NCBI GenBank assembly: GCA_023954745.1
Contig: JAGSHC010000032.1
Coordinates: 1-36,770 of the forward strand
Source of the DNA: Deltaproteobacteria bacterium
Lineage (GTDB): Bacteria > Myxococcota_A > UBA796 > UBA9615
DNA length: 36,770 nt
Direction: 5' to 3'
Part shown: piece by piece, positions 2,723 through 26,272 of the stretch
Layout of the letters: the number at the start of each line of letters is the position of its first letter
Position numbering within the stretch: position 1 is the stretch's first letter
The notes under the pieces: generated by a model
Databases searched by the model: none
Told to the model about the DNA's origin: nothing
What the model saw: the letters and a program-made list of their open reading frames with translations, nothing else
Translations under genes and position numbers: made by a program

Positions 2723-5700
2723 CTACTCCGTCAACGCCGCGAGCCTCTTGGCAAAGACCTCGTTGGGCACCCGGCCCTCTCCATCCACCGAGAGCTCGGG
2801 TCGAATCCCATCGACGAAGTACATGGGCACCCTCCCCAGCCCCTTCGCGGCCACCTCGCCACGGTCGGTCCACTCGAACAGCGGCTCGGTAGCGGCGTAC
2901 GTCGCCTGGGACACGTTCACCCTGCCCGGAACGCCCGACGACTCCATCCGGGACGCCGTGTTGACCGTCTCCCCCCACACGTCGTAGGCGAACTTGCGGG
3001 TCCCGATGACCCCCGCCACCAGCGGCCCGCTGTGGATGCCTACCCGCAAGGTCCACGGCGTGTCCCCGACGTCGGTGCGGCTCGCTTGTCTGGAGTCGAT
3101 GTAGTCCTGGAACGCCAGCCCCGCGAGGATGCAGTCGGCGGCATGGGTCGTGGAGAGTCGGGGGACGCCGCCGGCACACATGTAGGCGTCGCCAATGGTC
3201 TTGAGCTTCTCGAGCCCACGCTCCTCGATGATGGCGTCAAACGCCGAGAAGGCCTCGTCCAACTCCGCCACCAACCGCGATGCCGACATCTGCTCGGCGA
3301 TGTGCGTGAAGCCCACGAAGTCGGTGAACAGCACCGACGTCGACTCGAACGCCACCGGCTCGGCGTGGCCCACCGCCTTGAGCTCCGTGGCGATGGCCGC
3401 AGGCAGGATGTTGCCGAGCAGCTCATCGGACCTCCGCCGGGCGTCAGCGAGCTCCTGGGTCCGCTCGATGACCTTCTCCTCCAGGCTCCCGTACAGCGCT
3501 GCGTTCTCGATGGAAATGGCGGCCTGGGCTCCGAGGGTCTGCATGAGCTCCACTCGCTGCAGAGTGAAGACGCTCGCCGTCTCGGCGTTCTCCAGATAGA
3601 GCAGCGCACGGAGCCGACCCTGATGCTCAAGGGGCACGCAGAGCACCGACTTGATGCCTTCCGACGCAATCATGTCCTCGTTGACGAAGGGCCCCTCCGC
3701 CGCCGCGTCGGCGAGCACCACCGGCTCGCGGGTGCGCTGCACGTAGAGCAGGACCCCCGCGGGACAGACGCCCGACTCGAGGGCGGGCACGCCCAATCCC
3801 CGCACGCGAATGGCGTTCCCAGCGATGCCCTCGGCGTGGGCCACCAGACCGTGCTCCTCCACGAGCACCAGCACACCCTTCCGCGCGCCGGACGTCTCCA
3901 GGGAGATGCGCAACAAGGCCTCGATCACCGCGCCGAGCTCCAGGTCCTGGGTGAGGACTCGGGAGGCGCGCACCACGGCGAGGGAGTCGATGGCCAGGGA
4001 GCCCGTCGTCCCCTGGTTCGTCGCCGTCGAGACCCTCCCGTCGCGGGCCCGCTCCAGCAGGGCCGGCCACTCGACCTCCATCGCCGCGACCTTGGCGTTG
4101 GCCCCCCAGCGCTCGTACAGATGACGCGCCTCGGCCAGATAGGCCCGCGCAACCGTGATGTTTCCCAGGGAGTGCGCGTAGCGCCCCGCGAGCTCGTTCC
4201 CGAGAGCCCGGTCGCCGATCCACCCGCCCTCGAGCGTCGCGGCGATGGCCTTGGGGTACAGCTCGTAGGGCGAGTCCCCACCGAAGACCCGCGCCCACTC
4301 GGCGTCCAGGAGGGCCACTCGGTGCATGAGATTCATGGGCCCCACTTCGGCCCAGCTCACGAGGGTCGCCCGGTTGCTCGCGAGGCGAGGCTTCACCCGC
4401 TCCTGACGCTCGGCGTCCAGACGGTCCCACGCCGCCAGATGCGCCAAGGTGTCGAGGAAGAGGTACATGGGTGCATAGAGCGACGACGCCGCCCCGGCCA
4501 GCCACTGCTGGTTCGCCTCGGCAGCGTCGGCGGCGGCGAGGGCATCCCCGAGCATGAAGGTTTGCAGCGTCTTGAGCACGCTGAACACGTAGAGGTTGCT
4601 GGTGTCGCCTCCCTCCACGAGAACCGGAACCTGCGTCCGTTCGTCGAAGTACTCGCCCGACAGCTCGTTGGGGGTGTCCGTGCCCTCCCGCAAAGCGACG
4701 ACTGGCTCGAGCTGCAGGTCCTGGAGCAGCTGGGGAATCGCCTGCCCCAGTCGGGTAATGGCCGCGTGGGATTCCCTCATGTCGTCGAGCACGGGCCCCA
4801 GCTCGTCCTGCCCGAAGAACGCCGACGTGCCGGACATCTGCGCGCCGAACCCGGCGAACAGGAAGTCCCCTAGGTTGTACCCAGCCTTGAAGACAGCCTT
4901 CTCGGGCTCTCGCAGCTCCCGCCAGTGGTGGTACCAGAACCGGATGTGCGCGAGGTAGATGTGTCGGGTGAGGTTGGCGATGCGGGGATTCGGGACCCGG
5001 TCGATCAGCCCAATGGCCGTCTCGCCGGCGGTGATGCCGCCCCGGAGATCACCAACGCTGCAGAGAATCAGGCCGTAGACGGAGAAGCCGTAGGGAGTCT
5101 CCGGCGCGAGGCCGTGCTCCAGGCCGTTGCGTACCAGGCCAAAGGCGAGCATCGGAAGCAAAGACGGGCGCGCAAAGTAGGCCGGCGACGTCAGGGTGTT
5201 GAGGATGCGGGAGATGGCCAGGGTCCGACCATCGCGGTCCGCGGGCAGCGCGTAGATCTCCTCAGCCTTCGTCTCGGCGAGAGCGGCCTGAGTGGCACCC
5301 AACCCCCCGATGACATCTTCCTGCGTTGGCTCCGCTGGGAGGTGCACTCCGAGAATCGCCAGGACCTCCAGGCCGCGCTCGATGGTCGAGCTGAGTTCGC
5401 CGGCGGAAAAGCGCGCGTAGATATCCACCTCGTACGCTCGCACCTTGTCGAGCTCCGAGCGGCCCTCCCGCAGGACGACATCCACGAGGGCGTCCATGGC
5501 GCTGCGCTCCTGGCTGAGATAGGCCGCCCGCGCCGCCTCAAGGTGCAGGTCGAGGGCGTCGTCGTAGAGCCGGGTCCACGCGTCGTCCGGGAGCAACTCC
5601 AGGCCCACCTGCAGGAACCCCCAGGCCGGCTGGTAGGCGGCCGCCCCCAGAGCGCGACGCCCCGCCTCGAGGTTCAACGCCCGCAGGGCATCTCGCTCCT

Positions 5701-7861
5701 CGGCGTCGTCGATGGCCGACCTCCCCGCGTTGAGGGAGTTCACGACGTCGAACACGCTCGCGCCGCCGTCCTCGAGTCGGCTGTGGAGCAAGCGCCCCAC
5801 GTCGCGATGGATGGTGGGGCGGTCGGCGCTGTCCGAGAGGGAGAAGGCCGCTTGCTGCACGCGGTCGTGCACGAAGCGAAAGGTCCCCGCGAAGTGGTCC
5901 GTCACCGAGATCAGCTCGGACTCCAGGGCGGCTTCGAGGGCCTGCTCAGCCGCGCTGCGCTCCTGCCCCAGCACCGTCGCGAGACCGCCGACATCGAACT
6001 GGGTCCCGAAGAAGGCAGCCCGAGAGAGAGCAAAGGTGGTGGTGTCGGGCAGGCGCCGGATGCGGCCGGCCATGAAGTCGACGACGTTGGCCGTGATCTC
6101 GCGGGCCTCGATCTCCGCCTGGGACCAGGTCCACTCGCCCGCCTCCAGGTCGAAGCAGACGAGCTCGTCGCGGTACAGCGCCTCCAGGAACTGGGTGCCG
6201 AAGAAGGGATTGCCTCGGGTCTTCGCGAAGACCAACCCGGCGAGCCCTTCGACCCTGGCGACGGGCACCCCCAGGGAGTCGGCGACGATCTCGCCGACCG
6301 TTCCCTCCTCCAGCGGCGCCAGACGAATCGTGGACAGGCTGCGCGCCGCCTCGATGCGCCCAATGGTGAACCTCAGCGGGTGGCCCGCCTGCACCTCGTT
6401 GTCCCGATAGGCCCCCACGACCAGCAGGTGCCCGGTGGCGTCGTCGGTGGCGAGGGCCTCGAGCAAGGTGAGGGTTGGCAGATCTGCCCACTGAAGGTCG
6501 TCGAAGAAGAGGACCACCGGGTGCTCGACGCTGGCCAGGGCCCGCACGAACCGCTGAAACACGAGGGTGAAGCGGTTGGCGGCCTCGGTGGGCGGCAGCT
6601 CCACCACGCCGGGCTGCTCCCCGATGATGAGCGACAGCTCGGGGAGGACCTCCGTGAGAATGCGGCCGTCGCCTTGCAGGGCATGGAGCAGCCGGCTTCG
6701 CCAAGCGGCCACATGCTCTTCTCGCCCACTCAGGAGCTGGCGCACGAAGCTCCCCAGCGCCTGCAGTAGCGACGCGTAGGGGCGCCCCCGGCTGAACTGC
6801 TCGAACTTGCCGGCGATGAACGCGCCGCGAGCCTGGACTACCGGCGGAACCAGCTCACGAATCAGGGACGTCTTGCCCACCCCCGAGTACCCGGCGACAA
6901 GCACGACCTCCAGACCTCCCGCGCGGGCGCCGGCAAAGGCCTCGAGCAGAAGCTGACGCTCCGTCCCACGCCCATACAGGCGCCCGGGGATGCGCAGAAT
7001 CTCCTGACGGTCCTCGGCGCCGAGGGGGAACGACGTCAGCGGTTCGTCACTGGCCAGACCCTCCAAGCAGCGGGTGAGGTCGGCTGCGAGCCCCGCGGCC
7101 GTCTGGTACCGGTCCTCAGCGGCCTTGGCGAGGAGTCGGTCCACGATCTGCGACACGACGAGGGGCACGTGCGGCGCGACATCCGCCACCTTCGGCGGCG
7201 TGCGAGCCACGTGGGCGTGCACCGAGGCGAGCGCGTCGTCCGTCTCGAACGGCGGCCTGCCTGCCAAGAGCTCGAAGAGCGTCGCTCCGAGGGAGTAGAG
7301 GTCCGCCCTCGTGTCCACGGGACGGTTCATTCGGCCGGTCTGCTCCGGCGCGATGTAGGTGAGAGTGCCCTCGAGACGTGCCGTGCTCGCCAGCGACGGT
7401 GCCTCGCGGGTGAATCGGCTGGCGATGCCGAAGTCGATCAACTGCACCGCGCCCGTGGCGTGGTTCCACACGATGTTGGCGGGGTTGACGTCCTTGTGGA
7501 TGACGCCAGATCGATGCACCCGACTCAGAGCATTGGCGGTGGCGAGGGCGATGTTCAGCGCCTGCTTGAGGGACGGAGTCCGGCCCTGGCGCAGGTGGAA
7601 GGCGACGGACTCTCCGCCGACATCCTCCTCGATGATCGCGGGAAGCCCGTCGATGGACTGCAAGCCAAGGACCCGCACCACCCCGGGACCCGCCAGGGCC
7701 GTGATGGTCTCGTACTCCTTGCGGAGCCGATGGATGCTCTCCTGGCTCGGGTGGGGGCCCGCCAGTTGCTTGATGACCACGGGCCGGCCTTCATGCCGAG
7801 CCCGACTCACCAGCGTGACCCGGCCGGTGAAGATGGTCTTCTTCGCCTCGAACTGCGCCAT
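2723..7861 (-). CDS. Protein kinase-AAA ATPase-GAF-adenylate cyclase giant signalling protein
   Basis: A 1712-residue multidomain regulator. Residues ~10-270 are a Ser/Thr kinase: VVIK lysine at about 31, IHKDVNPAN catalytic loop at about 124 and LIDFG at about 140. Residues ~300-600 are a STAND/AAA_16-type ATPase with Walker A GYSGVGKTS at about 328 and Walker B VVLFFDDLQWAD at about 450. A long helical region follows, probably TPR-like. A GAF domain lies at ~1300-1455, then a short coiled segment. A class III cyclase occupies ~1500-1700. The cyclase keeps both metal aspartates (LFTDFVGFT, TIGDAYM), the adenine-selecting Lys and Asp (EKLKTIGD, YDVWG) and the transition-state Asn/Arg (VNTASRM), so I infer active ATP cyclisation. 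I chose ATG 7861, preceded by GGGGAG, over an in-frame GTG at 7891. It is convergent with eutL. Confidence 0.93.
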   Translation of the reverse strand: MAQFEAKKTIFTGRVTLVSRARHEGRPVVIKQLAGPHPSQESIHRLRKEYETITALAGPGVVRVLGLQSIDGLPAIIEEDVGGESVAFHLRQGRTPSLKQALNIALATANALSRVHRSGVIHKDVNPANIVWNHATGAVQLIDFGIASRFTREAPSLASTARLEGTLTYIAPEQTGRMNRPVDTRADLYSLGATLFELLAGRPPFETDDALASVHAHVARTPPKVADVAPHVPLVVSQIVDRLLAKAAEDRYQTAAGLAADLTRCLEGLASDEPLTSFPLGAEDRQEILRIPGRLYGRGTERQLLLEAFAGARAGGLEVVLVAGYSGVGKTSLIRELVPPVVQARGAFIAGKFEQFSRGRPYASLLQALGSFVRQLLSGREEHVAAWRSRLLHALQGDGRILTEVLPELSLIIGEQPGVVELPPTEAANRFTLVFQRFVRALASVEHPVVLFFDDLQWADLPTLTLLEALATDDATGHLLVVGAYRDNEVQAGHPLRFTIGRIEAARSLSTIRLAPLEEGTVGEIVADSLGVPVARVEGLAGLVFAKTRGNPFFGTQFLEALYRDELVCFDLEAGEWTWSQAEIEAREITANVVDFMAGRIRRLPDTTTFALSRAAFFGTQFDVGGLATVLGQERSAAEQALEAALESELISVTDHFAGTFRFVHDRVQQAAFSLSDSADRPTIHRDVGRLLHSRLEDGGASVFDVVNSLNAGRSAIDDAEERDALRALNLEAGRRALGAAAYQPAWGFLQVGLELLPDDAWTRLYDDALDLHLEAARAAYLSQERSAMDALVDVVLREGRSELDKVRAYEVDIYARFSAGELSSTIERGLEVLAILGVHLPAEPTQEDVIGGLGATQAALAETKAEEIYALPADRDGRTLAISRILNTLTSPAYFARPSLLPMLAFGLVRNGLEHGLAPETPYGFSVYGLILCSVGDLRGGITAGETAIGLIDRVPNPRIANLTRHIYLAHIRFWYHHWRELREPEKAVFKAGYNLGDFLFAGFGAQMSGTSAFFGQDELGPVLDDMRESHAAITRLGQAIPQLLQDLQLEPVVALREGTDTPNELSGEYFDERTQVPVLVEGGDTSNLYVFSVLKTLQTFMLGDALAAADAAEANQQWLAGAASSLYAPMYLFLDTLAHLAAWDRLDAERQERVKPRLASNRATLVSWAEVGPMNLMHRVALLDAEWARVFGGDSPYELYPKAIAATLEGGWIGDRALGNELAGRYAHSLGNITVARAYLAEARHLYERWGANAKVAAMEVEWPALLERARDGRVSTATNQGTTGSLAIDSLAVVRASRVLTQDLELGAVIEALLRISLETSGARKGVLVLVEEHGLVAHAEGIAGNAIRVRGLGVPALESGVCPAGVLLYVQRTREPVVLADAAAEGPFVNEDMIASEGIKSVLCVPLEHQGRLRALLYLENAETASVFTLQRVELMQTLGAQAAISIENAALYGSLEEKVIERTQELADARRRSDELLGNILPAAIATELKAVGHAEPVAFESTSVLFTDFVGFTHIAEQMSASRLVAELDEAFSAFDAIIEERGLEKLKTIGDAYMCAGGVPRLSTTHAADCILAGLAFQDYIDSRQASRTDVGDTPWTLRVGIHSGPLVAGVIGTRKFAYDVWGETVNTASRMESSGVPGRVNVSQATYAATEPLFEWTDRGEVAAKGLGRVPMYFVDGIRPELSVDGEGRVPNEVFAKRLAALTE

Positions 7862-7933
7862 GCTCCCCTGGCCCTCGTACCCCGTTGCCACCCTACCGCG
7901 TGGCGCCGACCCTGTGGGTATCCGCGGTCTCCG

Positions 7934-10551: not shown

Positions 10552-10593
10552 CCATCAGGACGCCAGTGACCGCCATCAGGACGCCAGTGACCG
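10552..10593 (+). repeat. Perfect 21-bp tandem duplication upstream of amt
   Basis: Two abutting identical copies of a 21-base unit beginning CCATCAGGACGCC, at 10552-10572 and 10573-10593. They end seven bases before the best -10-like hexamer of the amt promoter region. The 21-base period is two helical turns, so the copies present the same DNA face. They could be a tandem operator or a recent slippage duplication. Confidence 0.9.
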
Positions 10594-10600
10594 CCCCCGC

Positions 10601-10606
10601 TATCAT
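10601..10606 (+). promoter_or_regulatory. Weak candidate -10 hexamer for the amt-led cluster
   Basis: TATCAT lies 44 bases upstream of the amt ATG, directly after the 21-bp tandem repeat, in the only non-coding gap large enough for a promoter before the long cluster. No good -35 is seen at 17 bases upstream, and no sigma-54 signature was found. An activator bound at the repeat could compensate. The assignment is tentative. Confidence 0.25.
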
Positions 10607-10649
10607 CATTTCTTCATCGGTGCATTGGACCTGGATCAAGGAGGAGTAC

Positions 10650-11990
10650 ATGGAGCGCGTGGCAAGGCTCGTGAGCTGTCTTCCAGCCGGCCTACTGCTG
10701 GTTCCCTCGGCCGTGCTCGCGGCGAGCGAAGACGCGGAGCAGGTCACCTCCTTCAACGCGCTGGACACCTTGTGGGTGCTGATGGCCGCCATCCTGGTGT
10801 TCTTCATGCAGACGGGCTTCGGCATGATCGAGTCGGGCTTGGTCCGCGCGAAGAACGCGTCCAACGTGCTGATGAAGAACCTGGTCGACTTCAGCTTCGC
10901 CGCCCTGGGCTTCTTCGCGTTCGGCTACGCCATCATGTTCGGCGGGTCGGGGGCCTTCGTGGGAACCACGGGGTGGTTCCTGGTGGGGGCAGAGTCTGCC
11001 GCCGACGGCGTCCCTGTCGAGGCCTTCTGGTTGTTCCAGGCGGTGTTCGCGGGCACGGCGGCGACCATCGTCTCAGGGTCCGTGGCCGAGCGCTTCAAGT
11101 TCACGTCCTACATGCTCGTGAGCTTCCTGGTGACCGCGTTCCTCTACCCGGTGGTCGGCCACTGGGTCTGGGGAGGCGGCTGGCTCGGGGACTACGGCTT
11201 CCACGACTTCGCCGGCTCCACCGTGGTCCACGCCGTCGGCGGCAGCTGCGCGCTGGTGGCCGCGTACCTCGTGGGCCCGCGACTGGGCAGGTTCCGCGAA
11301 GACGGCACCGTGGCCCCCATCCTCGGGCACAACCTGCCCATCGCGACGCTCGGCATGTTCATCCTCTGGGTCGGTTGGTACGGGTTCAACGCCGGCTCGA
11401 CCCTGGGCATGGGCGACCCGGCCCTCGTGGCGCGGATCGCCCTGAACACGACCCTGGCGCCGGCCGCGGGTGTGCTGACCGCGATGACCGTCGCCTGGGT
11501 CCGCTTCGGTAAGCCGGACCTCTCCATCGCCCTGAACGGGGCGCTCGGGGGGCTCGTCGGCATCACCGCGCCATGCGCTGTGGTGGGGGCGGGCTCGTCC
11601 ATCGCGATCGGCGTCGTGGCGGGCTTCATCGTGGTCTGGGGGATCGACCTCCTGAACAAGGTGCGCATCGACGACCCCGTGGGCGCCATCCCCGTCCACG
11701 GCTTCAATGGCGTCTGGGGCACCCTCGCGGTGGGCCTCTTCGGCCAGCAAGCCCTGGGCTCCCCCTCCGACGGGCTCTTCCTCGGCGGAGGCTTCGCCCA
11801 GCTCGGCTCCCAGGCCCTGGGTGTGGTCGCCTGTGTCTCCTTCACCCTCGCCGCCGCCTGGGTCATGCTCAAGGCTGTCGACTCGGTCATGGGCCTGCGG
11901 GTCTCCCACGAGACCGAACTCAAGGGCCTCGACCTCGATGAACACGGGGTCGAGTCGTACGGCGGCTTCCAGATCTTCCTGACCGACTAG
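10650..11990 (+). CDS. amt: Ammonium transporter Amt
   Basis: A 446-residue Amt/MEP/Rh family channel that conducts ammonia across the inner membrane. An N-terminal hydrophobic segment ending AVLAAS looks like a signal peptide, as in AmtB. The family signature FMQTGFGMIESGLVRAKN follows. The twin pore histidines are visible at about H194 (TVVHAVGG) and H350 (PVHGFNGVWG). I chose ATG 10650 because AAGGAGGAG ends three bases before it; the longer upstream frame is non-conserved. The PII gene starts 13 bases after the stop, the classic amtB-glnK pairing, so gating by PII is expected. This is the first gene of a 15-gene co-directional cluster. Confidence 0.97.
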   Translation: MERVARLVSCLPAGLLLVPSAVLAASEDAEQVTSFNALDTLWVLMAAILVFFMQTGFGMIESGLVRAKNASNVLMKNLVDFSFAALGFFAFGYAIMFGGSGAFVGTTGWFLVGAESAADGVPVEAFWLFQAVFAGTAATIVSGSVAERFKFTSYMLVSFLVTAFLYPVVGHWVWGGGWLGDYGFHDFAGSTVVHAVGGSCALVAAYLVGPRLGRFREDGTVAPILGHNLPIATLGMFILWVGWYGFNAGSTLGMGDPALVARIALNTTLAPAAGVLTAMTVAWVRFGKPDLSIALNGALGGLVGITAPCAVVGAGSSIAIGVVAGFIVVWGIDLLNKVRIDDPVGAIPVHGFNGVWGTLAVGLFGQQALGSPSDGLFLGGGFAQLGSQALGVVACVSFTLAAAWVMLKAVDSVMGLRVSHETELKGLDLDEHGVESYGGFQIFLTD

Positions 11991-12003
11991 CGAGGCCACG
12001 CAC

Positions 12004-12336
12004 ATGAAGTTCGTCGTCGCCATCTTGCGCCCCGAGCAGCTTCCGGCTGTCAAAGAGGAGCTGATGCACGCCCAGATCCAGCAGTTCACGGTCACCAATG
12101 CCCTGGGCACCGTGCCCCGGGCGGAGCAGCGGATGTACCGGGGCGTGGAACAGCGCGTCTCTCTCAAGCAGCGGATTCGCCTCGAGCTTGCCGTGCGGGA
12201 CGCGGACCTGGAGATCGCCCTTGAGGCCCTCCGTCGAGGTGCCCTCGAGCAGGGTGGCCACGGCAAGGTCTTCGTGACCGAGCTCGTGGAGGTAATGACC
12301 CTCTGGAACGGCGAGCGCGGCTCGCGGGCTCTGTAG
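12004..12336 (+). CDS. glnK: PII signal protein, GlnK-like, with altered T-loop
   Basis: A 110-residue PII family protein; the usual length is 112. It starts KFVVAILRPEQLPAVKEEL and ends in the beta-strand GGHGKVFVTELVEVM. It lies between amt and glnA, where GlnK normally plugs Amt and reports nitrogen and energy status. The T-loop is unusual. The block that reads YRGAEY in E. coli GlnB reads YRGVEQ here, so the uridylylated Tyr51 is replaced by Gln, and the loop is one residue shorter. The conserved TGxxGDGKIF segment is also reduced to GGHGKVF. Regulation by uridylylation is therefore unlikely, and nucleotide or 2-oxoglutarate binding may be altered. Family membership is secure; the ligand response is uncertain. 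Confidence 0.9.
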   Translation: MKFVVAILRPEQLPAVKEELMHAQIQQFTVTNALGTVPRAEQRMYRGVEQRVSLKQRIRLELAVRDADLEIALEALRRGALEQGGHGKVFVTELVEVMTLWNGERGSRAL

Positions 12337-15142: not shown

Positions 15143-16474
15143 ATGCCCCGAACCTCGGTCTCCTCCACTCTGCTCCGACTCGCGACGTTCGCGGGTGCCA
15201 TCGCCACGGGGGTGGTCGAGCCCTTCCAACTGTCCTTCGGGGCCCTGAGCGGCACGGGCCTGACGGCGCTGGTGGCGCTGGACCTGCTGTTCTGGGGTCT
15301 GCTGTGGCACGAGTGGCGAGAGAGTCGCGAGGGCGAGCCCAGCCGCCGCCCCGGCTTGGCCAGCGTGCTCGTCGAGTTGCCAGTGGACTGGGTGGTCCTC
15401 CTGCTGCTGGGACCGGTTTCCATCGGGCCATTCAGCCTCTTCTCCCTCTTGCGCATTCCGCGCCTGCTGCGCCTCCGGCGCGCTTGGTACCACCTGCGGT
15501 CCATGGGGTCCCGCGGCTCTTCGCGCTCCGTACTGCGGCGTCTGGCGCTGCTGACGACCGCACTTGTGGTGCTGAACCATCAGGTGGGTTGCCTGTGGTT
15601 CGCCCAATCTGCGCTGGCCGGCCATCCGCCGGACTCCTGGGTCGCACGGCAGGGCCTCGTCGACGCGAGCACGGCCGAGCAATACCTGCGTGCGTTGTAC
15701 TGGTCGGTGACCACCATGACGACGGTGGGGTACGGCGACATCACCCCCGTCGGAGGCCAGGAGTACGCCACCACGGTCTTCGTGATGCTGCTCGGCACGG
15801 TGGTCCACGCCCTCCTCATCGGGGCCTTCGCCGCGGCCATCGCCGGCCTGGACATCGCCAGGACTCGCTTCTTCCAGAGCGCGGACGTGCTCCACGCGTT
15901 CCTACGGGCGCGGGGGGCCTCGCACCGTGTGCTGGAGCGGATCGCGGACTACCACGACCACCTCTGGTCACGGCACGGCGGCTACCTGCACGACAAGCTC
16001 CTCGCCCGCTTGCCTTCGTCCATGAGAACAGAGGTCATGGCCAGTCTGGCCGGCCCGCTGCTGGACGATGTGCCGCTTTTCTCGCAGGCCTCGGAGCCGG
16101 TGCAGCAGGCCCTGCTCTCGGTGCTTCAGTTCGAGGTGCATCCCCCGGGGGCCGTCCTGGTACGCGCGGGGTCGCCGCCGCGGGAGGTCTTCGTCCTGGC
16201 GCAGGGGCGCCTGGAGATCGTCTCGGCCGACGGGACGCGGATCCACGGTCGGTACGAGGCGGGCGATCTCTTCGGGCTCCTGTCCCTGATGCTCGACGAG
16301 GAGCGCTCGGCCTCGGTTCGTGCTCTGGGGTACTGCGATGTCTTCGTCCTCCGGCGGAGCGATCTCGACGGTATCCGCGCGGGCTTCCCCGAGTTCGACG
16401 CCCTCCTGGGCGAGGTGGGGAGCACCCAGTCCGACCGTCTCTCCGAGCTCGTGATGGACGGAGTGGTCATTTGA
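15143..16474 (+). CDS. Potassium-channel-like protein with C-terminal cyclic-nucleotide-binding fold
   Basis: A 443-residue six-helix channel related to EAG/CNG-type channels. An S4/S5-like Arg-rich helix (LLRIPRLLRLRRAWYHLR) lies at ~110-130, and the selectivity filter TMTTVGYGDITP starts at ~191, diagnostic of K+ selectivity. A C-linker follows, then a cyclic-nucleotide-binding fold at ~305-430. The phosphate-binding cassette reads GDLFGLLSLMLDEERSASV: the ribose-binding Glu expected after F-G is Leu, while the phosphate-binding Arg before S-A is kept. Nucleotide binding is therefore doubtful or altered. The S4 helix is not a regular voltage sensor. The gap to the flotillin gene is 52 bases and to the next gene 21. 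A large adenylate cyclase lies 7 kb to the left, outside this cluster. Confidence 0.93.
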   Translation: MPRTSVSSTLLRLATFAGAIATGVVEPFQLSFGALSGTGLTALVALDLLFWGLLWHEWRESREGEPSRRPGLASVLVELPVDWVVLLLLGPVSIGPFSLFSLLRIPRLLRLRRAWYHLRSMGSRGSSRSVLRRLALLTTALVVLNHQVGCLWFAQSALAGHPPDSWVARQGLVDASTAEQYLRALYWSVTTMTTVGYGDITPVGGQEYATTVFVMLLGTVVHALLIGAFAAAIAGLDIARTRFFQSADVLHAFLRARGASHRVLERIADYHDHLWSRHGGYLHDKLLARLPSSMRTEVMASLAGPLLDDVPLFSQASEPVQQALLSVLQFEVHPPGAVLVRAGSPPREVFVLAQGRLEIVSADGTRIHGRYEAGDLFGLLSLMLDEERSASVRALGYCDVFVLRRSDLDGIRAGFPEFDALLGEVGSTQSDRLSELVMDGVVI

Positions 16475-16495: not shown

Positions 16496-17407
16496 GTGAG
16501 TGAGCTGTCACTGGAGTGCCTCCGCCGTGCCCGCGAGGGTGTACCCCCGGGGGAGGGGCTGTCCGCCGCGAGTATCGAGGGCTGGCACCGTCTCTGCCTC
16601 GAGTTGGCCCTGGAAGCCGGCGCCCGGGTGCGGGCGGCCCGACACGTGACCCTGGGCGACCAACTCTCCTTCAAGGACGACCGCTCGCCCACCACCACCA
16701 CCGAACTCCAGATCGAGGAGACGATGACTCGCCACCTTGAAGCCTTCGACCCGACCGCTGTCCTGGCGGGCGAGGAGACCGGGGGCGAGGTACCAGCGGT
16801 GGGACATGCCATCGCGGTAGACCCCATCGACGGCACCTGGGCCTTCGTGGGTCGCACCGAGTCGATCGCCACCAGCGTGACGGTGTTCCGGGACCACGAG
16901 GTCATCGCGGCGGTGGTGCTGAACCCTGCGACCGGCGAGGTCGTGCACGCGTCCACGGAGCGGCCCACGGAACTGCTCAGGCTCGGCTTCCTGGACGAGG
17001 GGGACGAGGTCGTGAGTCTGCCGCTCCAGCGCCGCGAGGGGGCCCGCCCCCTCGTCAACCTGCAGCCCACCCGGGATGGCGCGCTCTCCGAGGCCATGCG
17101 CCAAGCGTGGGCTGACCGGACCGTGGGGGTGGTCCGCTCGCCCGGTGGCTCTCCGGCCTGGTCCCTCGCCAACGCCACGCTCGGCAGCTTCACCTACGTC
17201 AACGCCTGGAGCCACAAGGGCACCGCGCCCCACGACCTGGCGGGCGGCGTCTTCCTGGTGCGGGCTGCAGGGGGAGAGGTGATCGACCCCGCCGGGGCGC
17301 CCGTGCAGCCCATGACCCACCTCGGCCCCTTCATCGCCGGCACGGACCGCCATGCCCTCGAGTTGGTGCGGTCGATCCTCCCCCACCCCGAGCTCTCAAG
17401 GGCCTGA
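16496..17407 (+). CDS. Inositol monophosphatase-family phosphatase
   Basis: A 303-residue Mg2+-dependent phosphatase of the IMPase/CysQ/FBPase fold. The three metal motifs are visible: GEETGG at ~92, VDPIDGTWAF at ~106-115 and APHDLAGGVFLV at ~245, the last in place of the usual WDxAAG. The N-terminal ~25 residues precede the fold. The substrate cannot be fixed; inositol phosphate, 3'-phosphoadenosine 5'-phosphate and sugar bisphosphates are all possible in the family. The start is GTG 16496 with GAGGAGA five to six bases upstream, better than any ATG nearby. It follows the channel gene by 21 bases and precedes the NUDT9-like fusion by 37, so co-transcription is likely. Confidence 0.9.
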   Translation: MSELSLECLRRAREGVPPGEGLSAASIEGWHRLCLELALEAGARVRAARHVTLGDQLSFKDDRSPTTTTELQIEETMTRHLEAFDPTAVLAGEETGGEVPAVGHAIAVDPIDGTWAFVGRTESIATSVTVFRDHEVIAAVVLNPATGEVVHASTERPTELLRLGFLDEGDEVVSLPLQRREGARPLVNLQPTRDGALSEAMRQAWADRTVGVVRSPGGSPAWSLANATLGSFTYVNAWSHKGTAPHDLAGGVFLVRAAGGEVIDPAGAPVQPMTHLGPFIAGTDRHALELVRSILPHPELSRA

Positions 17408-17444
17408 AACACCCGCTCCCTCCCACCGAGGTCCACCAATCCAG

Positions 17445-19991
17445 ATGCCGAGTCTCATCATCGCCACAGGCCTGACCCGAGAGGTCATCAGCCCCAAGAA
17501 CCGCTTCCTCGGTGGCCGCAAGCATGTGGGGGTCAGCGAGAGCAACCGCCTCCTGGGACGGGGGAGGGAATACGGCAAGGGGCCTCTGCCCGCGTTCCTG
17601 GCCGCGGCCCTGGCGGACGCGGCCCAGCCCGTCGGACTCGTCGTCGTGGTGGATGAGGGCGAGGGGACAGACGCCCTGGTCGAGCCCATCGCGGAGCTTG
17701 CCCGGTCGGCCGCCATCGTCAGCTCTCGCGGAGGCCATGTGTCCATCGCCGATCTTCGGGAGGCCGTGCGGCAGGCCGGAGGAGTCGACTTCCTCGCCGA
17801 GGGCGACGATGCATCTCCCCTACGGGTCGTGGTAGTGGGTTGCGACACCGACGACATGGTCCTTGGTCTCGCCAGCCTGCTGCACCGCTTCGCCGGCGGC
17901 GCCGACGTCGCCGTCTGCCCTCACCTCGTGGGCAGTCCAGTGAAGGAGGCGCACCTGGGCGTGCTGCGGCACACCCTGCCCGGGGTGGGCGTGCACGTGG
18001 TGCTCGACCTCGCCGACGCAGCGCGCTTCATCGGCGTCTCTCCGGACTCCCTCGAGCCCTTCGAGGCGCGGCCCTGCGCCATCGAGCCGGCAGAGGCGCG
18101 CGAGGTGCTGGGGGTTGACGCCCGCCAGATCGTCGAACTGCTGTGCCTGCACTGGACCCGCGCCAGCCTGCGGCCGCTGACCGGCGGATTCAGCGGGAGC
18201 CTGCTCTTCCTCGCGGACGGCTGGCGGGGGTCGGCCAAGACCGAGCCCGCAGTGCTCAAGATCGACAACTTCGCCCAGATGCGTCGGGAGCTCCGCGGGT
18301 ACTACCTGGTGAAGGACCTCCTCGGGAAGCACGTCCCCGGCTTCGGCTACCCCATCGCGCGTGGCGACTGGATGGGCGTGAGCATGGAGCTCGCCGCGAT
18401 GGAGGGACGACCCGAGACCCTCCAGGATACCTTCGAGGAGGCTGAGACCGAGCACGACCTCGAGCGGTTCCTCCGGCGGCTCGACAAGGCCACCTCGCTG
18501 CTCGTGGAGAAGCTCTACTCCAACACCCTGCAGCCCGACGCGGTCGTCCCCTACCGGCAGTTCGGCCTGCAGATGAGCCTGCAGCTCACCTGGCTGGAGG
18601 AGAACGGCGACCTCATCCTGGGCTACCTCGAGGAGGAGGGGTGCCCCGACGACGGCCTCGACACCTTCGAGCTCGTCGCGATGCTCAGCATGGTGAGCGG
18701 CAACCCCGACGGTGTGCCCAGCGCCACCACGCTTCAGCACGGGGATCTCAACTTCGCCAACATCATCTGCGACGAGGGCGACAACGCCTGGTTCATCGAC
18801 TGGACCCACGCCGCCCGGGTGCCCGTGGAGCTGGACTTCGCCAAGCTCGAGAACGACGTCAAGTTCGTCATGAGCAAGGAGTTCGACCTCGAGGACCTGC
18901 CCCGGCTCCGACGCTTCGAGGAGTACCTGCTCGCGCACCCCATCCCGGGCGCGGCCGAGAACCTCCCCGAGAGCCTCCGCTACGCGAAGTGGGACCTCCG
19001 GTACCGCAAGATCCTGGAGACGGTCCGGCGTATCCGCGCGGCCTACTTCCAGCTGCGCGGCGACGAGGAGATGCTGGTCTACAAGGTGGCCCTGCTCCGA
19101 TATGCCCTGCACACCCTCAGCTTCGATCAGAAGCGCGAGCGAGGCGAGTGCACCGTGCAGCAGCTCGCCCACGCCCTGCACTCGGTGGACCTGCTCCTCC
19201 TCCAGCTCGTCAGCGACGACTACCACCTGCGCACCCGGTCGGAGCGTCCCGACAGCTACCCGGAGCGCCACCGGGTCTCGATCGACGAGGCGCCCTGGAT
19301 GTTTGACTGCGAGGGATACGCCCCCACCTATTACGTGGCCCCGCAGGTCCTCGCGGCCGATCGGACCCGCGTGGAGGGAGCCTGGGCCGACCCCGAGGAC
19401 TTCTCCCTCGTCCGCGCCGAGGTCGAGGGTGCCGAGCGCGACGAGCTCGGTCGTCCGCTCAACCCCGAGGGCCGCACCGGCGTCGCCGGTCGGGGCCTGC
19501 TCGGGCGCTGGGGGGCGAACCCCGACGTCACCCTGTGCCTGGTGCGTCCCGGCGACCCCGATGGCTTCGAGATCGCGTTGGGGCGGCGGGAGCAGGGGGG
19601 CGCCCTGGAGCTTCCCCGTGCCTTCGTTCGACGTGGCGAGCTGGTGGAGGTCTGCCTGGCCCGTCTCCTCGAGACCGAGTGCTCCCTTCAGCTCCCCGAG
19701 GGAGTTCCCCTGGAGCGCGTCACCGAGGGCTACACCTACGACATCCGCCAGACCGACCACGCCTGGGTGGAGACCGTGGGGCTCCTCGTACTCTCGGACA
19801 GTCCCGCCCTGGACCAGCTGGCACCCCTCGGAGACTTCGACGAGCTCGGGTGGTGGCCCCTGGACGCGCCCACCACCAATCAGGTGGTCGCGGCCCACGC
19901 TGCCGTCATCCGGAGCGCCGTCGAGAGGCTCGAGCGTTCCGGTAAGCTGGCGTCCTCTGCGGCATCGGACTTCCTTGCCAAGACAGGCTGA
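17445..19991 (+). CDS. Fusion: degenerate isochorismatase fold + APH-like kinase fold + inactive NUDT9-type Nudix domain
   Basis: An 848-residue protein. Residues ~1-205 look like an isochorismatase fold (RVVVVGCDTDDMVLGLAS; HVVLDLADAARF), but the catalytic Cys position appears to be Met and the N-terminal Asp is absent. Residues ~210-570 resemble an aminoglycoside-phosphotransferase-like kinase: RPLTGGFSGSLLFL (~243), a VLKID lysine, LQHGDLNFANI (~430) and WFIDWTH (~448). Pfam's TCAD9 may be the nearest family; I cannot check. Residues ~600-848 match the human NUDT9/TRPM2 Nudix region: DSYPERHRV, GYAPTYYVAPQVL, WADPEDFS, NPEGRTGVAGRGLLGRWGAN. The Nudix box (~721-745) reads PRAFVRRGELVEV...LLETEC, so the catalytic REFGEE glutamates are largely lost. 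I infer ADP-ribose binding without hydrolysis. It lies immediately before the stressosome genes. Confidence 0.75.
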   Translation: MPSLIIATGLTREVISPKNRFLGGRKHVGVSESNRLLGRGREYGKGPLPAFLAAALADAAQPVGLVVVVDEGEGTDALVEPIAELARSAAIVSSRGGHVSIADLREAVRQAGGVDFLAEGDDASPLRVVVVGCDTDDMVLGLASLLHRFAGGADVAVCPHLVGSPVKEAHLGVLRHTLPGVGVHVVLDLADAARFIGVSPDSLEPFEARPCAIEPAEAREVLGVDARQIVELLCLHWTRASLRPLTGGFSGSLLFLADGWRGSAKTEPAVLKIDNFAQMRRELRGYYLVKDLLGKHVPGFGYPIARGDWMGVSMELAAMEGRPETLQDTFEEAETEHDLERFLRRLDKATSLLVEKLYSNTLQPDAVVPYRQFGLQMSLQLTWLEENGDLILGYLEEEGCPDDGLDTFELVAMLSMVSGNPDGVPSATTLQHGDLNFANIICDEGDNAWFIDWTHAARVPVELDFAKLENDVKFVMSKEFDLEDLPRLRRFEEYLLAHPIPGAAENLPESLRYAKWDLRYRKILETVRRIRAAYFQLRGDEEMLVYKVALLRYALHTLSFDQKRERGECTVQQLAHALHSVDLLLLQLVSDDYHLRTRSERPDSYPERHRVSIDEAPWMFDCEGYAPTYYVAPQVLAADRTRVEGAWADPEDFSLVRAEVEGAERDELGRPLNPEGRTGVAGRGLLGRWGANPDVTLCLVRPGDPDGFEIALGRREQGGALELPRAFVRRGELVEVCLARLLETECSLQLPEGVPLERVTEGYTYDIRQTDHAWVETVGLLVLSDSPALDQLAPLGDFDELGWWPLDAPTTNQVVAAHAAVIRSAVERLERSGKLASSAASDFLAKTG

Positions 19992-20046: not shown

Positions 20047-20952
20047 ATGAGCTTCACCGCGATGGATCTCCACTCCCCCGACACCGCCAGCCTCCTCAAG
20101 GTCTATGGCATCGGTGATGCCGAGATCGAGACCCTGCACGCCTGGAAGGCACACTTGGAGGGCGGCGGCTTCGAGCGGGTGGTCGCCGACTTCTACACTT
20201 GGCTCCAGCGCCAGCCCGAGTATGAGGAGTTCATCGACAACCCCGAGACGGAGCGCCGACTCCGCCGACTCCAGACCACCCACCTCGTAAGCCTGGTGAG
20301 CGGGGAGTTCGACGACCGCTACTTCTCGAACCGGACACGGGTGGGGGAGGTGCACGCCCGAATAGGGCTCCCTCTCCACTCGTACCACGGCGCCATGAAC
20401 CACCTGTGCCTCTGCATGCTCCGGCAGCTCCCCCCGGACGTCGACCCGTTGGGCGCGACGGTCACGCTGCTGCGGGTGCTCCACCTGGACACCGCCCTCG
20501 TCGCCCTGGCCTACAGCCGCTACGCCAACGACCGGGTCGCCGCCCAGAGCAAGGCGCTGCTCGAGATGTCCACCCCAGTGACCGAGATCTGGAGGGGCGT
20601 CCTGTTGCTGCCCATCGTCGGGATCATCGACTCCGGGCGGGCCCAGGACATCATGACCGGCGCACTCACGAAGATCTCCTCGTCTCGAGCTCGCGTCTTC
20701 ATCATGGACATCAGCGGCGTGGCCGTCGTCGACACGGCCGTGGCGAACTACCTCATCAAGGTGACGCGCGCGACGCGACTGATGGGCTGCGAGTGCATCG
20801 TTTCCGGGGTTTCCCCGGCGATCGCCGAGACCATCGTGGAGCTGGGCATCGACGTCGGCACCATCGTGACCACGGGCACCCTGATGCAGGCGCTCGTGCT
20901 CGCCTTCGATCGGGTGGGGCTGAGCGTCGAACAGAGTGGACGCGCCGGGTGA
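20047..20952 (+). CDS. rsbR: RsbR-type stressosome protein with globin sensor domain and STAS domain
   Basis: A 301-residue globin-coupled sensor fused to a STAS domain, the architecture of stressosome RsbR paralogues. The N-terminal globin (~10-165) keeps the proximal haem histidine at H103 in the family block VGEVHARIGLPLHSY, so haem binding and sensing of O2 or another gas are expected. The C-terminal STAS domain (~175-297) contains VFIMDISGVAVVDTAVANYL; T230 in VVDT aligns with the RsbT-phosphorylated threonine of RsbR (T205 in B. subtilis RsbRA). The start ATG at 20047 is 55 bases after the preceding stop. The stop overlaps the rsbS GTG by four bases, beginning a run of ATGA/GTGA overlaps through six genes. 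Confidence 0.93.
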   Translation: MSFTAMDLHSPDTASLLKVYGIGDAEIETLHAWKAHLEGGGFERVVADFYTWLQRQPEYEEFIDNPETERRLRRLQTTHLVSLVSGEFDDRYFSNRTRVGEVHARIGLPLHSYHGAMNHLCLCMLRQLPPDVDPLGATVTLLRVLHLDTALVALAYSRYANDRVAAQSKALLEMSTPVTEIWRGVLLLPIVGIIDSGRAQDIMTGALTKISSSRARVFIMDISGVAVVDTAVANYLIKVTRATRLMGCECIVSGVSPAIAETIVELGIDVGTIVTTGTLMQALVLAFDRVGLSVEQSGRAG

Positions 20953-21332
20953 TTGCAGATGCCACCAGTCGCTACCCCATGCAGGTCTCCCGGGGCTGCG
21001 TGCAGGTCTCGTTTCCGTCGGAGGTGACGGACGCCATGCTCCGGGAGTTCCGCTCGGAGCTCCTGAGATACGTGCGGGATCAATCCGCAGACAGCGTCGT
21101 GGTGGACTTGTCGGGCCTGCGTGTGCTCGACCGTGAGGAGTTCCGATCCCTACGGGCGACGCTGGACATGACACGTCTGTTGGGGGTCCACGTGGTGGTC
21201 ACGGGACTCCGACCCGGGGTCGTGGCCGTCATCACCGAGCTGGATCTCCACCTGCCGTATCCGGCCGGCCTCGATCTCGATCACGGCTTCGACATCGTCC
21301 GAACCCTTCGAAGGGAGGAGATCACATCGTGA
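20949..21332 (+). CDS. rsbS: RsbS-like STAS protein lacking the phosphorylatable serine
   Basis: A 127-residue single-domain STAS protein that should form the stressosome core with RsbR. It aligns along its length with B. subtilis RsbS: SVVVDLSGLRVLD..., TRLLGVHVVVTGLRPGVVAV, ITELDLHLP and DHGFDIVRTL. At the position of Ser59 (IDSFI in B. subtilis) the sequence is LDREEF, so the target of the RsbT kinase is Arg at ~62, followed by two Glu. Release of RsbT by RsbS phosphorylation may therefore not occur as in the model system. The GTG at 20949 overlaps the rsbR stop and is followed by an internal ATG at 20979, which could be an alternative start. The stop overlaps rsbT. Confidence 0.88.
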   Translation: MIADATSRYPMQVSRGCVQVSFPSEVTDAMLREFRSELLRYVRDQSADSVVVDLSGLRVLDREEFRSLRATLDMTRLLGVHVVVTGLRPGVVAVITELDLHLPYPAGLDLDHGFDIVRTLRREEITS

Positions 21333-21727
21333 AGCGGAGCCGCTGGCGCGTCGCCACCGAGGCTGACGTGCACCTCATCGTCGCCGAGTCCTACAAGGCC
21401 TTGGAGGCTCTCGGGGCGCGGCCCGTCCAGGCTGCGAAGTTCACGACCGCGGTGTCCGAGCTCGCGCGGAACATCCTCAAGTACGCCGACCGGGGCTACA
21501 TCGAGTTCGTCGAGCTCGTCGAGGACAACCGGGTCGGCATGCGCGCCGAGGTGACCGACAAGGGCCCGGGGATCGCCGACATCGAGCTGGCGCTGGCGGA
21601 CTCCTACTCCTCGTCCGGAACGCTGGGGCTCGGGCTTCCAGGGGTGCGTCGGCTCGCACACCGCTTCGAGATCGAGAGCGAGGTCGGCAAGGGCACGCGG
21701 GTCTTGATCGAGATGTGGGTCCGATGA
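21329..21727 (+). CDS. rsbT: RsbT-type serine/threonine kinase (HATPase fold)
   Basis: A 132-residue switch kinase of the GHKL fold. It has the full RsbT pattern: FTTAVSELARNILKYADRG (N box), DKGPGI (G1 box), SGTLGLGLPGVRRLAHRFEI and GKGT. In known stressosomes RsbT is held by RsbR/RsbS, phosphorylates them on stress, then leaves to activate the RsbU phosphatase. GTG 21329 is preceded by a strong AGGGAGGAG and overlaps the rsbS stop by four bases; its own stop overlaps the next gene. All catalytic boxes look intact. In this locus the RsbR target Thr is kept while the RsbS target Ser is not. Confidence 0.95.
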   Translation: MKRSRWRVATEADVHLIVAESYKALEALGARPVQAAKFTTAVSELARNILKYADRGYIEFVELVEDNRVGMRAEVTDKGPGIADIELALADSYSSSGTLGLGLPGVRRLAHRFEIESEVGKGTRVLIEMWVR

Positions 21728-22323
21728 GCGTCGGGACCCTCGGACGCCTGGAGTGGGCGGCAGCCGGGCAGCGGTGCGCCGGAGAGCGGGTCAGCGGAGA
21801 TCTCGCCCTGCTGATGCCCATCGAGACGGGCCTGCTCGTGGCGATCTTCGACGGGCTCGGGCATGGCGAGCGAGCCCACGAGGCCGCCGAGGTCACCCGA
21901 GAGACCCTCGCGGCCGCGCCCGATGAACCGATGAGCAGGCAGTTCGAGCGGGTCCACGCCGCGCTGCGAGTGACCGTGGGCGGCGCCCTCGGTCTCGCCC
22001 TGTTCTCGGCCGATGGGAGCCAGGTCGTGTTCGGGGGCATCGGCAACACCGTGGCGCGCCGTCTCCACCCCTCGAGCCGAACCCTGTCGAGCTCCGCGGG
22101 GGTCCTGGGGCAGCGCTACTCCAGGCCCGGGATGTACGAGTCCTCCCTGGCCGAGGGGGACGTGTGGATCCTCCATACCGACGGGATCTCCCGCTCCTTC
22201 GGCGCCGAGGAGCTCCCCCAGACGAGCTACCAGAGTGCCCGGACACTGGCCCGCACGGTGGTCCGGCGATTCTCCAGCTTCTTCGACGACGCGACCTGCG
22301 TCATCGTCCGGGTGACGCCATGA
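21724..22323 (+). CDS. rsbX: RsbX-like SpoIIE/PP2C phosphatase
   Basis: A 199-residue stand-alone PP2C-type phosphatase with the RsbX pattern: GERVSGDLALL, VAIFDGLGHGERAHEAAEV, VVFGGIGNTVARRL, GDVWILHTDGISRSF and a terminal DDATCVIVRV. The metal-binding aspartates of the four motifs are present. RsbX resets stressosomes by dephosphorylating RsbR and RsbS. The ATG at 21724 overlaps the rsbT stop (ATGA), and the gene ends in another ATGA overlap. The order R-S-T-X is the common stressosome arrangement outside Bacillus. Confidence 0.92.
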   Translation: MSVGTLGRLEWAAAGQRCAGERVSGDLALLMPIETGLLVAIFDGLGHGERAHEAAEVTRETLAAAPDEPMSRQFERVHAALRVTVGGALGLALFSADGSQVVFGGIGNTVARRLHPSSRTLSSSAGVLGQRYSRPGMYESSLAEGDVWILHTDGISRSFGAEELPQTSYQSARTLARTVVRRFSSFFDDATCVIVRVTP

Positions 22324-24011
22324 TCGAGCTGGGCCGCATGTCCGTGCATACCCAGTCCGCCGGGCGCGAGGCACGGCGACGGGTGTTCGCGGTCGTGGGG
22401 CTGCTCGGCGGAGACGACATCGTCGCCTCCCTGACGGCCACGGGCACCTCCGAGATCGCCCGCCACATGGTCGCCACGGCGGCCTTCCCGGACCCACACA
22501 TCGTCTTCTTCGTCTGCGAGTCCACCCTGGGAGTCGTCCTCCGCCTGGACTTCCGGGCGGAAGGGATCAGCGAGCTCCTGGAACAGGTCGGCGGGCTCTT
22601 CGGACGAGTGGAGCGGGCAGCTGCCGGCTCGGGGTTGACGGCGCAGACCAAGATCCTCAGCCGGAGCGCTCCATCTGCCGGTGACGCGTTGAGGTGTCGT
22701 CAGCTCGTGGCCGAACAGGGCCGCGAGGAGCTGATGGCGGCCCTGTCGGAGAAGAACCGGGAGCTGGAGACCTCGTTCGAGCGCCTCCGCAGGGAGAAGT
22801 CTGCAAAGCAGCGGATGGAGAGCGAGCTCAACATCGGCCGCGACATCCAGATGAACCTGTTGCCGCTGGTGTTCCCCCCGTTCCCGGAGCGCAACGAGTT
22901 CGACCTCTACGCCCGCCTGCGACCGGCGCGCGAGGTGGGTGGCGACTTCTACGACTTCTTCCTCATCGACCAGGACCATCTGTGCTTCGTGGTGGGCGAT
23001 GTCTCGGGCAAGGGAGTGCCTGCAGCCCTCTTCGCCGCCGTGACCAAGACCCTCATCAAGTCGCGCGGTTCGATCGACCACTCCCCCGGCACCGTCGTCA
23101 CCCACGCCAACGAGGAGCTCGAGCACGGCAACGAGAACGCCATGTTCGTCACCCTCTGGCTGGGGATTCTCCACATCCCCAGCGGACGGGTGGTCTACAC
23201 CAACGGCGGGCACAACCCACCGCTGCTGCGGCGCGCGAACGGCGAGCTGGAGCTATTGGAGGAGATCCATGGACCCATCGTGGGGGCGATGGATGACCTG
23301 GCCTACGGCGACGACGAGGTCGAGCTGCGGCCAGGCGACAGCCTGATCCTGTTCACCGATGGGGTGACCGAGGCCATGGACGTGTCGGGCGCCTTGTACG
23401 GGGACGAGCGTCTCGAGGATCTCGCGCGGGAGATGCCCGCCATCGCTCCCCAAGCCGTGGTGGAGTTGCTCCTGGACGAGGTGGACCGGTACGCAGGTGA
23501 GGCCGAGCAGGCCGATGACATCACCATCCTGGCCTTGAGCTACGCGGGCCCCAGCCGGGACCGCAACGCCAGCCTCGACGTTCAAATCGACAGCGAGCTG
23601 GCAGCAATCGACGGCGCGCAGGAGGAGGTGGGCACCTTCCTGCTGGAGCGAGGCGTGGAGGAGGAGATCGTCTTCCACATCAACATGGTGCTCGACGAGC
23701 TCGTCAACAACATCGTCAGCTACGGCTTTGACGACGAGGACGACAAGCCCAGCATCCAGCTGCGGGTGGACCACAACCCCACCGCCGTGTGCCTCACCCT
23801 CATCGACCGTGGCAAGCCGTTCAATCCATTTGACACCGAGGAGCCCGACACCAGCCTCGGCATCGACGAGCGTGAGATCGGGGGGCTGGGCATCCACCTC
23901 GTCCGCTCGGTGATGGACGAAGCCAAGTACCGGCGGCACATGGGCGGCAACGAGGTCCGCCTGGTGAAGCAGCTCCGGGCATCCGAACCGGAAGAGGGAA
24001 GCCAGCAATGA
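22320..24011 (+). CDS. Fused RsbU-type SpoIIE phosphatase and RsbW-type HATPase kinase
   Basis: A 563-residue three-part protein. Residues ~20-125 look like a degenerate RsbT-type HATPase: TATGTSEIARHMVATA lines up with the N box of the neighbouring RsbT, but the Asn is lost and the ATP-lid glycines are absent. Residues ~130-185 are a coiled coil. Residues ~190-425 are a SpoIIE PP2C phosphatase with REVGGDFYDFF (~205), VVGDVSGKGVPAALF (~225), ILFTDGVTEA and ADDITILAL. Residues ~430-555 are a complete RsbW-like HATPase: MVLDELVNNIVSYGF (~455), LIDRGKPFNPF and IGGLGIHLVRSV. Phosphatase and kinase acting on the same anti-anti-sigma class would sit in one chain. Four-base overlaps join it to both neighbours. 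Confidence 0.92.
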   Translation: MIELGRMSVHTQSAGREARRRVFAVVGLLGGDDIVASLTATGTSEIARHMVATAAFPDPHIVFFVCESTLGVVLRLDFRAEGISELLEQVGGLFGRVERAAAGSGLTAQTKILSRSAPSAGDALRCRQLVAEQGREELMAALSEKNRELETSFERLRREKSAKQRMESELNIGRDIQMNLLPLVFPPFPERNEFDLYARLRPAREVGGDFYDFFLIDQDHLCFVVGDVSGKGVPAALFAAVTKTLIKSRGSIDHSPGTVVTHANEELEHGNENAMFVTLWLGILHIPSGRVVYTNGGHNPPLLRRANGELELLEEIHGPIVGAMDDLAYGDDEVELRPGDSLILFTDGVTEAMDVSGALYGDERLEDLAREMPAIAPQAVVELLLDEVDRYAGEAEQADDITILALSYAGPSRDRNASLDVQIDSELAAIDGAQEEVGTFLLERGVEEEIVFHINMVLDELVNNIVSYGFDDEDDKPSIQLRVDHNPTAVCLTLIDRGKPFNPFDTEEPDTSLGIDEREIGGLGIHLVRSVMDEAKYRRHMGGNEVRLVKQLRASEPEEGSQQ

Positions 24012-25921: not shown

Positions 25922-26272
25922 ATGAACATCACCATCCAGGAGCACCCCAACGGCATCGTCGTCGAGCTCGACGGCAAGCTCGACACCGGCACTTCGCTGG
26001 GGGTCGACCAGGCCCTCAAGGAGGTCGCGGGCGACCAGCTCCAGGCGCTCCCCGAGGGGGCCCGCCTGCTCGTCGTGGACTGCACCAAGGTCCCATTCAT
26101 CAGCAGCGCCGGCCTCCGGGTCCTGCTCGCCACGGGCAAGGCCCTGCGGCGTTCCCGCGGGGAGCTCCGAATCAGCGGCCTGAACGAGGCCCCTCGCAAG
26201 GTGTTCCAGATCTCGGGCTTTGACCGGTTCTTCAAGGTCTTCCCCGACTCGGAGACCGCCCTCAGCGCCTGA
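25922..26272 (+). CDS. RsbV/SpoIIAA-like anti-anti-sigma STAS protein
   Basis: A 116-residue single STAS domain. The phospho-site block reads LLVVDCTKVPFISSAGLRVLL; S62 aligns with the phosphoserine of RsbV and SpoIIAA (DSTG/DSSG). It is therefore the probable substrate of the RsbW-type kinase and SpoIIE phosphatase fused in the protein encoded at 22320. A good ribosome site (CAGGAGA) precedes the ATG. The gene is separated by 54 bases from the membrane sensor and 28 from the flavoprotein. No anti-sigma/sigma pair lies nearby, so its final partner is unknown. Confidence 0.92.
   Translation: MNITIQEHPNGIVVELDGKLDTGTSLGVDQALKEVAGDQLQALPEGARLLVVDCTKVPFISSAGLRVLLATGKALRRSRGELRISGLNEAPRKVFQISGFDRFFKVFPDSETALSA

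Follow-up and report, generated by a model that had tools for sequence, protein, structure and literature searches.

A bacterial fusion protein joins a NUDT9-homology domain with a degenerate Nudix box to a TCAD9/APH-like kinase beside stress-signalling genes

We analysed a window (the whole stretch of DNA under study) of 36,770 nucleotides, in which a forward-strand gene (17445..19991, +) encodes an 848-amino acid protein with a pseudo-nicotinamidase-like domain, a TCAD9/APH-like kinase and a catalytically degenerate NUDT9-homology (NUDT9-H) domain. The reading frame is open from 17352 to 19991 (+), the ATG at 17445 gives the 848 residues with a start that agrees with the homologues, and the gene is present as a single copy in its host genome. 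The NUDT9-H domain occupies residues 600-830 (19242..19934, +), as assigned from sequence and profile matches and alignment. When the single sequence was compared with PDB sequences by phmmer, residues 598-827 matched human NUDT9 (1q33, E 2e-13), and the remaining significant matches were exclusively TRPM2 proteins from several animal species (E 1e-7 to 0.01). A profile built from three homologues matched NUDT9 at E 1.4e-17, choanoflagellate TRPM2 at 2e-14 and human TRPM2 at 5e-14, and the 848-residue protein scored 24.4 bits against the Pfam NUDIX cut-off of 21.1. The motifs GYAPTYYVAPQVL, WADP and NPEGRTGVAGRGLLGRWGAN can be read in the protein, as can the conserved NUDT9 cap motif GRTGVAGRGLLGRWG (residues 676-690; 19470..19514, +) and the segment YDIRQTDHAWVET (residues 765-777; 19737..19775, +), in which R768 is equivalent to NUDT9 Arg273 and TRPM2 Arg1433, and D766 to TRPM2 Asp1431. 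Similarity to the NUDT9/NUDT9-H family covers both cap and core, and both the GRTGxxGRGxLGxWGxN and the DxR[QN]TDxAW motifs are present. Pfam detected neither an ion-channel domain in the 848-residue protein, the K+ channel of this locus being a separate gene, nor a DNA-binding domain C-terminal to the Nudix domain. The best fold match of the Nudix model was the TRPM2 chanzyme with ADP-ribose (E 3e-4; TMq 0.32, rmsd over 12); because the AlphaFold2 models, made with three-row alignments, are of low confidence (mean pLDDT 49.4 and 44.9), such matches serve as supporting evidence and add little beyond sequence.

The central part of the protein (residues 230-565; 18132..19139, +) scored 86.2 bits against TCAD9 (PF19974; cut-off 40), the Pfam match to APH being weak, and keeps VLK (K272), HGDLNxxN (D434, N439) and FIDW (D452). 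K272, H432-N439 and D452 do not vary among the three full-length relatives that were aligned, and the kinase motifs are legible in two others (G843 and G145). The N-terminal part (residues 1-215; 17445..18089, +) appears, from a low-confidence AlphaFold2 model, Foldseek and alignment, to be an isochorismatase/nicotinamidase-like alpha/beta domain that lacks the catalytic Cys and Asp. Its best Foldseek match, obtained with a partly confident model, was nicotinamidase 3s2s (E 0.08, prob 0.97, TMt 0.58). It reads GCDTDDM where G.(A)TD.C is expected, and the nicotinamidase Asp-Lys-Cys triad is incomplete, with the N-terminal Asp gone and Met, Arg, Gln or Lys at the Cys site. Sister TCAD9 proteins of the same phylum match PF00857 (E 1.5e-7) and Mycobacterium tuberculosis PncA (E 1.7e-5); they keep the PncA DxH and HC motifs and also lack the Cys. 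Most of them have a C-terminal DSP phosphatase where NUDT9-H would be. Seven (L068, L070, L072, L074, L075, L076 and L077) carry pseudo-nicotinamidase, TCAD9/APH-like kinase and DSP phosphatase (HCxGGxGRS) on one chain, and in the pseudo-nicotinamidase of this family the metal-ligand-like DWH and HC are kept and the Cys is lost. The first-pass annotation had proposed a NUDT9/TRPM2-type C-terminus fused to an APH-like kinase and a degenerate isochorismatase fold: the first is borne out by the search results and by the presence of every motif it quoted, the second agrees with the TCAD9 score and the intact Lys, HGDxxxxN and [ILF]D[WF] motifs of the predicted kinase, and the third is consistent with the 3s2s match of the low-confidence model, the sister matches to PF00857 and PncA and the replaced catalytic Cys.

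This protein is rare, and five further relatives were found in four other metagenome-assembled genomes (MAGs) from two bacterial lineages; those that are whole show 37-74% identity. MAGs or assemblies are the source of all six homologues. The relative L002 (genome G007) is 74% identical, and L003, from a Desulfobacteraceae MAG, is 46% identical and has a second copy, L079, in the same bin. The G145 relative (52-54% identical) is broken between the ends of two contigs, which share a 348-base overlap at 98%, and the most divergent member, G843 (37% identical), shares its class with the Desulfobacteraceae MAG and, of the fusion family, is closest to NUDT9 (E 3.4e-29 against the human protein). 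In L079:360-1394 (G379:C850), the pseudo-nicotinamidase and kinase are mostly missing through an in-frame deletion and the NUDT9-H domain is left, with synteny otherwise unchanged; this internal deletion may be either real or an assembly artefact. In a tree without G843, the four NUDT9-bearing proteins formed one clade with support of 100/100 and a long stem, the branch separating them from the DSP-bearing sisters being very long (5.2), which points to a single origin of the NUDT9-bearing clade on these four members. The position inside the clade of L003, which is assigned to another phylum, implies an ancient gene that was lost many times, or else horizontal transfer. No relatives were found in viral contigs and phage records, and a plasmid search returned free-standing NUDT9-like proteins only; for two of these with intact boxes (L064 and L067, actinobacterial plasmid proteins), we noted GGDEF-domain genes nearby.

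Directly upstream of the fusion gene lies a gene for an inositol-monophosphatase-family (IMPase) phosphatase (PF00459; 16496..17407, +) with GEE, DPIDGT and PHDLAGG motifs, and beyond it one for a cyclic-nucleotide-domain K+ channel with a TTVGYGD filter (15143..16474, +). The IMPase gene adjoins the fusion gene in the window, L002, L003, L079 and G145 (four of the five host genomes), and the channel is near it in the window, L002 and G145 (three of the five). Among 17 hand-picked genomes, an IMPase at >=42% identity occurred only in the four syntenic genomes, three of which were also the only ones with the channel; the same-genus genome G001 has neither such an IMPase nor the channel. At the channel's place L003 encodes a SulP transporter that carries STAS and cNMP domains and is in two pieces (L003:12918-15200, stop near 13631); the L079 copy reads through, which indicates that the break in L003 is a frameshift or an assembly error. 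Downstream of the fusion gene follow genes for a Protoglobin-STAS protein (RsbR-like; 20047..20952, +), a STAS protein (RsbS-like; near 20956-21332, judged by eye), an HATPase (RsbT-like; 21329..21727, +) and a small SpoIIE/PP2C phosphatase (RsbX-like; 21715..22323, +). We note that these genes (20047-22323), whose Rsb labels are given by Pfam domains and gene order, resemble a haem-sensor stressosome RsbR-S-T-X set. A SpoIIE phosphatase-HATPase protein (RsbU-like; 22320..24011, +; start uncertain, as the reading frame opens at 22164) comes next, and its orthologues adjoin the fusion gene in L003 and G145; a SpoIIE-type phosphatase, with or without HATPase, is found in the window, L002, L003 and G145. 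The gene for a STAS protein of the anti-sigma-antagonist type (25922..26272, +) is farther away in the window; its orthologues immediately precede the fusion gene in L003, L079 and G145.

In G843 the neighbourhood is quite different: the fusion gene is flanked by aldehyde:ferredoxin oxidoreductase and MoxR-type AAA genes, and IMPase, STAS, SpoIIE and channel genes are absent, so that channels are not an obligate partner and the partner-switching link is not universal. Overall, gene order in two lineages shows a recurrent linkage of the fusion gene to genes for a predicted IMPase-type phosphatase and predicted STAS/SpoIIE partner-switching proteins. Of the neighbours to which the first-pass annotation had drawn attention, the K+ channel recurs, with the IMPase gene, which that annotation did not name, lying between it and the fusion gene, and the stressosome-type genes are found in the window, with SpoIIE-type genes again in L002, L003 and G145. 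The bestrophin (27780) and transhydrogenase (26298; NCBIfam PRK05249, above cut-off) genes do lie 6-8 kb downstream in the window; as fixed partners they were dropped for want of recurrence, being absent from the retrieved L003 and G145 contigs, with the L002 contig ending earlier. Elsewhere in the window, genes for an AmtB ammonium transporter and a divergent PII protein (10566..12336, +) are syntenic in G145; the PII protein (12004-12336) is 69% identical to that of L056:3004-3333. A few genes upstream, the window also encodes a 1721-amino acid fusion of protein kinase, AAA_16, GAF and nucleotide cyclase domains (2729-7891, -).

The Nudix box of the fusion protein (R725-S747, RAFVRRGELVEVCLARLLETECS; 19617..19685, +) reads R725-AFVRRG-E-LVEVCLA-RLLETEC against the consensus G-x5-E-x7-REUxEE; the first two catalytic glutamates are replaced by Leu and Thr, and the third, E745, is kept. 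It aligns without gaps, as LPRAFVRRGELVEVCLARLLETECS, with IPGGMTDPGETAPDTLVRELREETG in actinobacterial NUDT9-like proteins. The corresponding stretches are RLLETE (window), RLVRTE (L002), WVIHRE (L003), RVIHQE (L079), RVLSAE (G145) and RAVRMK (G843), compared with RILRQE in human TRPM2. The first two box glutamates are gone in all six fusion homologues and in none of the four free-standing actinobacterial plasmid NUDT9-like proteins that served as the intact-box control (RELREE). The first position is hydrophobic or Ala and the second is never Glu, and the third Glu is retained in five of the six; G843 has lost all three. The loss of the catalytic box that had been claimed from the window alone is upheld, and no intact box was found among the six homologues. 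In NUDT9, the first box Glu coordinates Mg2+ and, with the third, forms stabilising salt bridges; the RILGEE and REFGKK mutants of NUDT9 are inactive, as is human TRPM2, and box mutants of nvTRPM2 leave the Km for ADPR unchanged (PMC6461439). Between the window protein and L002, dN is 0.24 and dS 0.99 over NUDT9-H (dN/dS ~0.24), and by this estimate the domain is under purifying selection. An isolated sequencing error does not account for the loss, given that five other homologues share it and that dN/dS is ~0.24; random degeneration of the box was likewise rejected on dN/dS and on the pattern common to the six homologues. The domain is very probably not a normal ADP-ribose hydrolase.

We then compared the ligand pocket with the NUDT9 residues listed as contacting ribose-5-phosphate (PMC5473349) and with the adenine-stacking TRPM2 residue Asp1431 (PMC6759353). 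Equivalents of Arg273 (TRPM2 Arg1433) and of Asp1431 are retained in all six homologues, that of Glu234 (TRPM2 Glu1409) in five (Lys in G843) and that of His324 in four of the five that are readable; an Arg204 equivalent aligns in three, its position being ambiguous. The window protein has Arg273, Glu234, His324 and probably Arg204, but neither Asp172 nor Tyr321. A purely structural role, with the domain a remnant that binds no small molecule and serves in dimerisation or partner docking, is unlikely but is the alternative to be taken most seriously: five of the six have lost the Asp172 equivalent, none keeps Tyr321 (Phe in G843), and between the window protein and L003 the Nudix core is 31% identical, against 54% for the cap. 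However, the Arg273 and Asp1431 equivalents, R[QN]TD.AW and the cap motif GRTGxxGRGxLGxWGxN are the same in every member, even at 37% identity, and G843 keeps every listed contact residue, Asp172 and Arg204 included, except Glu234 and Tyr321. This nearly full contact set in a protein without the three catalytic glutamates is, as judged from alignment, the clearest sign of putative non-hydrolytic binding. In the window clade, the drift of the pocket, together with an Arg in place of the first Gly of its PGG, makes the ligand less certain, and it may differ or be absent there. That the ligand is ADP-ribose itself is plausible, at somewhat below an even chance.

A role in conflict or immunity, in which the fusion would sense NAD breakdown during phage attack, seems improbable. 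TCAD9 was described with, and takes its name from, vWA-MoxR-VMAP ternary systems (PMC10910872), and the PF19974 score and the MoxR-type AAA_3 gene that follows the fusion gene in G843 could be read in this way. Against this, the fusion protein has no PADLOC match, its neighbours in the window, L002, L003 and G145 belong to stress signalling and transport and not to defence, and the vWA-MoxR-VMAP association is absent among the scanned window genes and the L002, L003 and G145 loci, the MoxR-type gene being beside G843 only. Least probable of all is that the domain remains a Nudix-type hydrolase of ADP-ribose or another diphosphate through non-canonical residues, which the retained third Glu and the few atypical Nudix enzymes that are active with non-canonical boxes (e.g. 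NUDT22) would allow, but which the replaced metal-binding first Glu, the second position, the loss of all three in G843 and the inactivity of equivalent NUDT9 mutants and human TRPM2 speak against.

Our preferred reading, to which we would give an even chance, is that the fusion protein is a kinase regulated by an ADP-ribose-like ligand through a non-hydrolysing NUDT9-H domain and coupled to a stress-signalling module. NUDT9-H would bind, but not cleave, ADP-ribose or a similar nucleotide derived from NAD, and once occupied it would alter the activity of the attached kinase, which may phosphorylate a small molecule or a protein. The adjoining IMPase-type phosphatase could reverse this phosphorylation (in the sister family a phosphatase is on the same chain), and the output would pass to the STAS/SpoIIE module and also, where a host has one, to the cNMP-domain channel or transporter. 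Nicotinamide and ADP-ribose are the two products of NAD+ glycohydrolysis, and a more specific version, which we consider a long shot, is a sensor kinase of NAD+ breakdown in which the dead nicotinamidase-like and dead ADP-ribose-pyrophosphatase-like domains flanking the live kinase would read these two products and switch the stress module and ion transport.

In a literature search largely outside subscription papers, we found no published NUDT9-H/TCAD9 fusion and no bacterial NUDT9-H without its box. Among known systems, the ADP-ribose-responsive repressor NrtR, which is among the fold matches of the low-confidence Nudix model, likewise uses a bacterial Nudix fold as an ADP-ribose sensor; unlike NrtR, the fusion protein has no DNA-binding domain, belongs to another Nudix subfamily and would have a kinase as output. 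The TCAD9-DSP proteins of the same phylum share the pseudo-nicotinamidase-like domain and the APH-like kinase but carry the HCxGGxGRS phosphatase instead of NUDT9-H, and no IMPase/STAS neighbourhood was noticed in the loci read. With human NUDT9 the protein shares the cap motif GRTGxxGRGLLGRWGxN, DxRxTDxAW and the overall two-part layout, whereas REFGEE has become RLLETE and Asp172 and Tyr321 are absent. In vertebrate TRPM2, the loss of NUDT9-H catalysis accompanied its use as an ADP-ribose sensor. The TRPM2 domain is homologous to that described here and has lost the first two box glutamates and kept the third (RILRQE, compared with RLLETE, RLVRTE and RVLSAE); in both, the Arg1433, Asp1431 and Glu1409 equivalents are kept and the domain is under selection after the loss of catalysis. 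The fusion protein differs in being bacterial, in having NUDT9-H joined to a kinase and not to a channel, and in missing the Tyr1485 and Tyr1349 equivalents in the window protein; its ADPR binding is putative. If ADP-ribose binding is true, the protein would offer a soluble, tractable model of a NUDT9 domain becoming a sensor, and bacterial partner-switching stress systems would gain ADP-ribose as an input. Further, as invertebrate TRPM2 boxes are canonical (PMC6461439), loss of the same two glutamates in the bacterial lineage appears to have been an independent event, in a protein still under selection and with a kinase as output. By these features, the fusion protein seems to be a bacterial equivalent of the animal TRPM2 ADP-ribose sensor.
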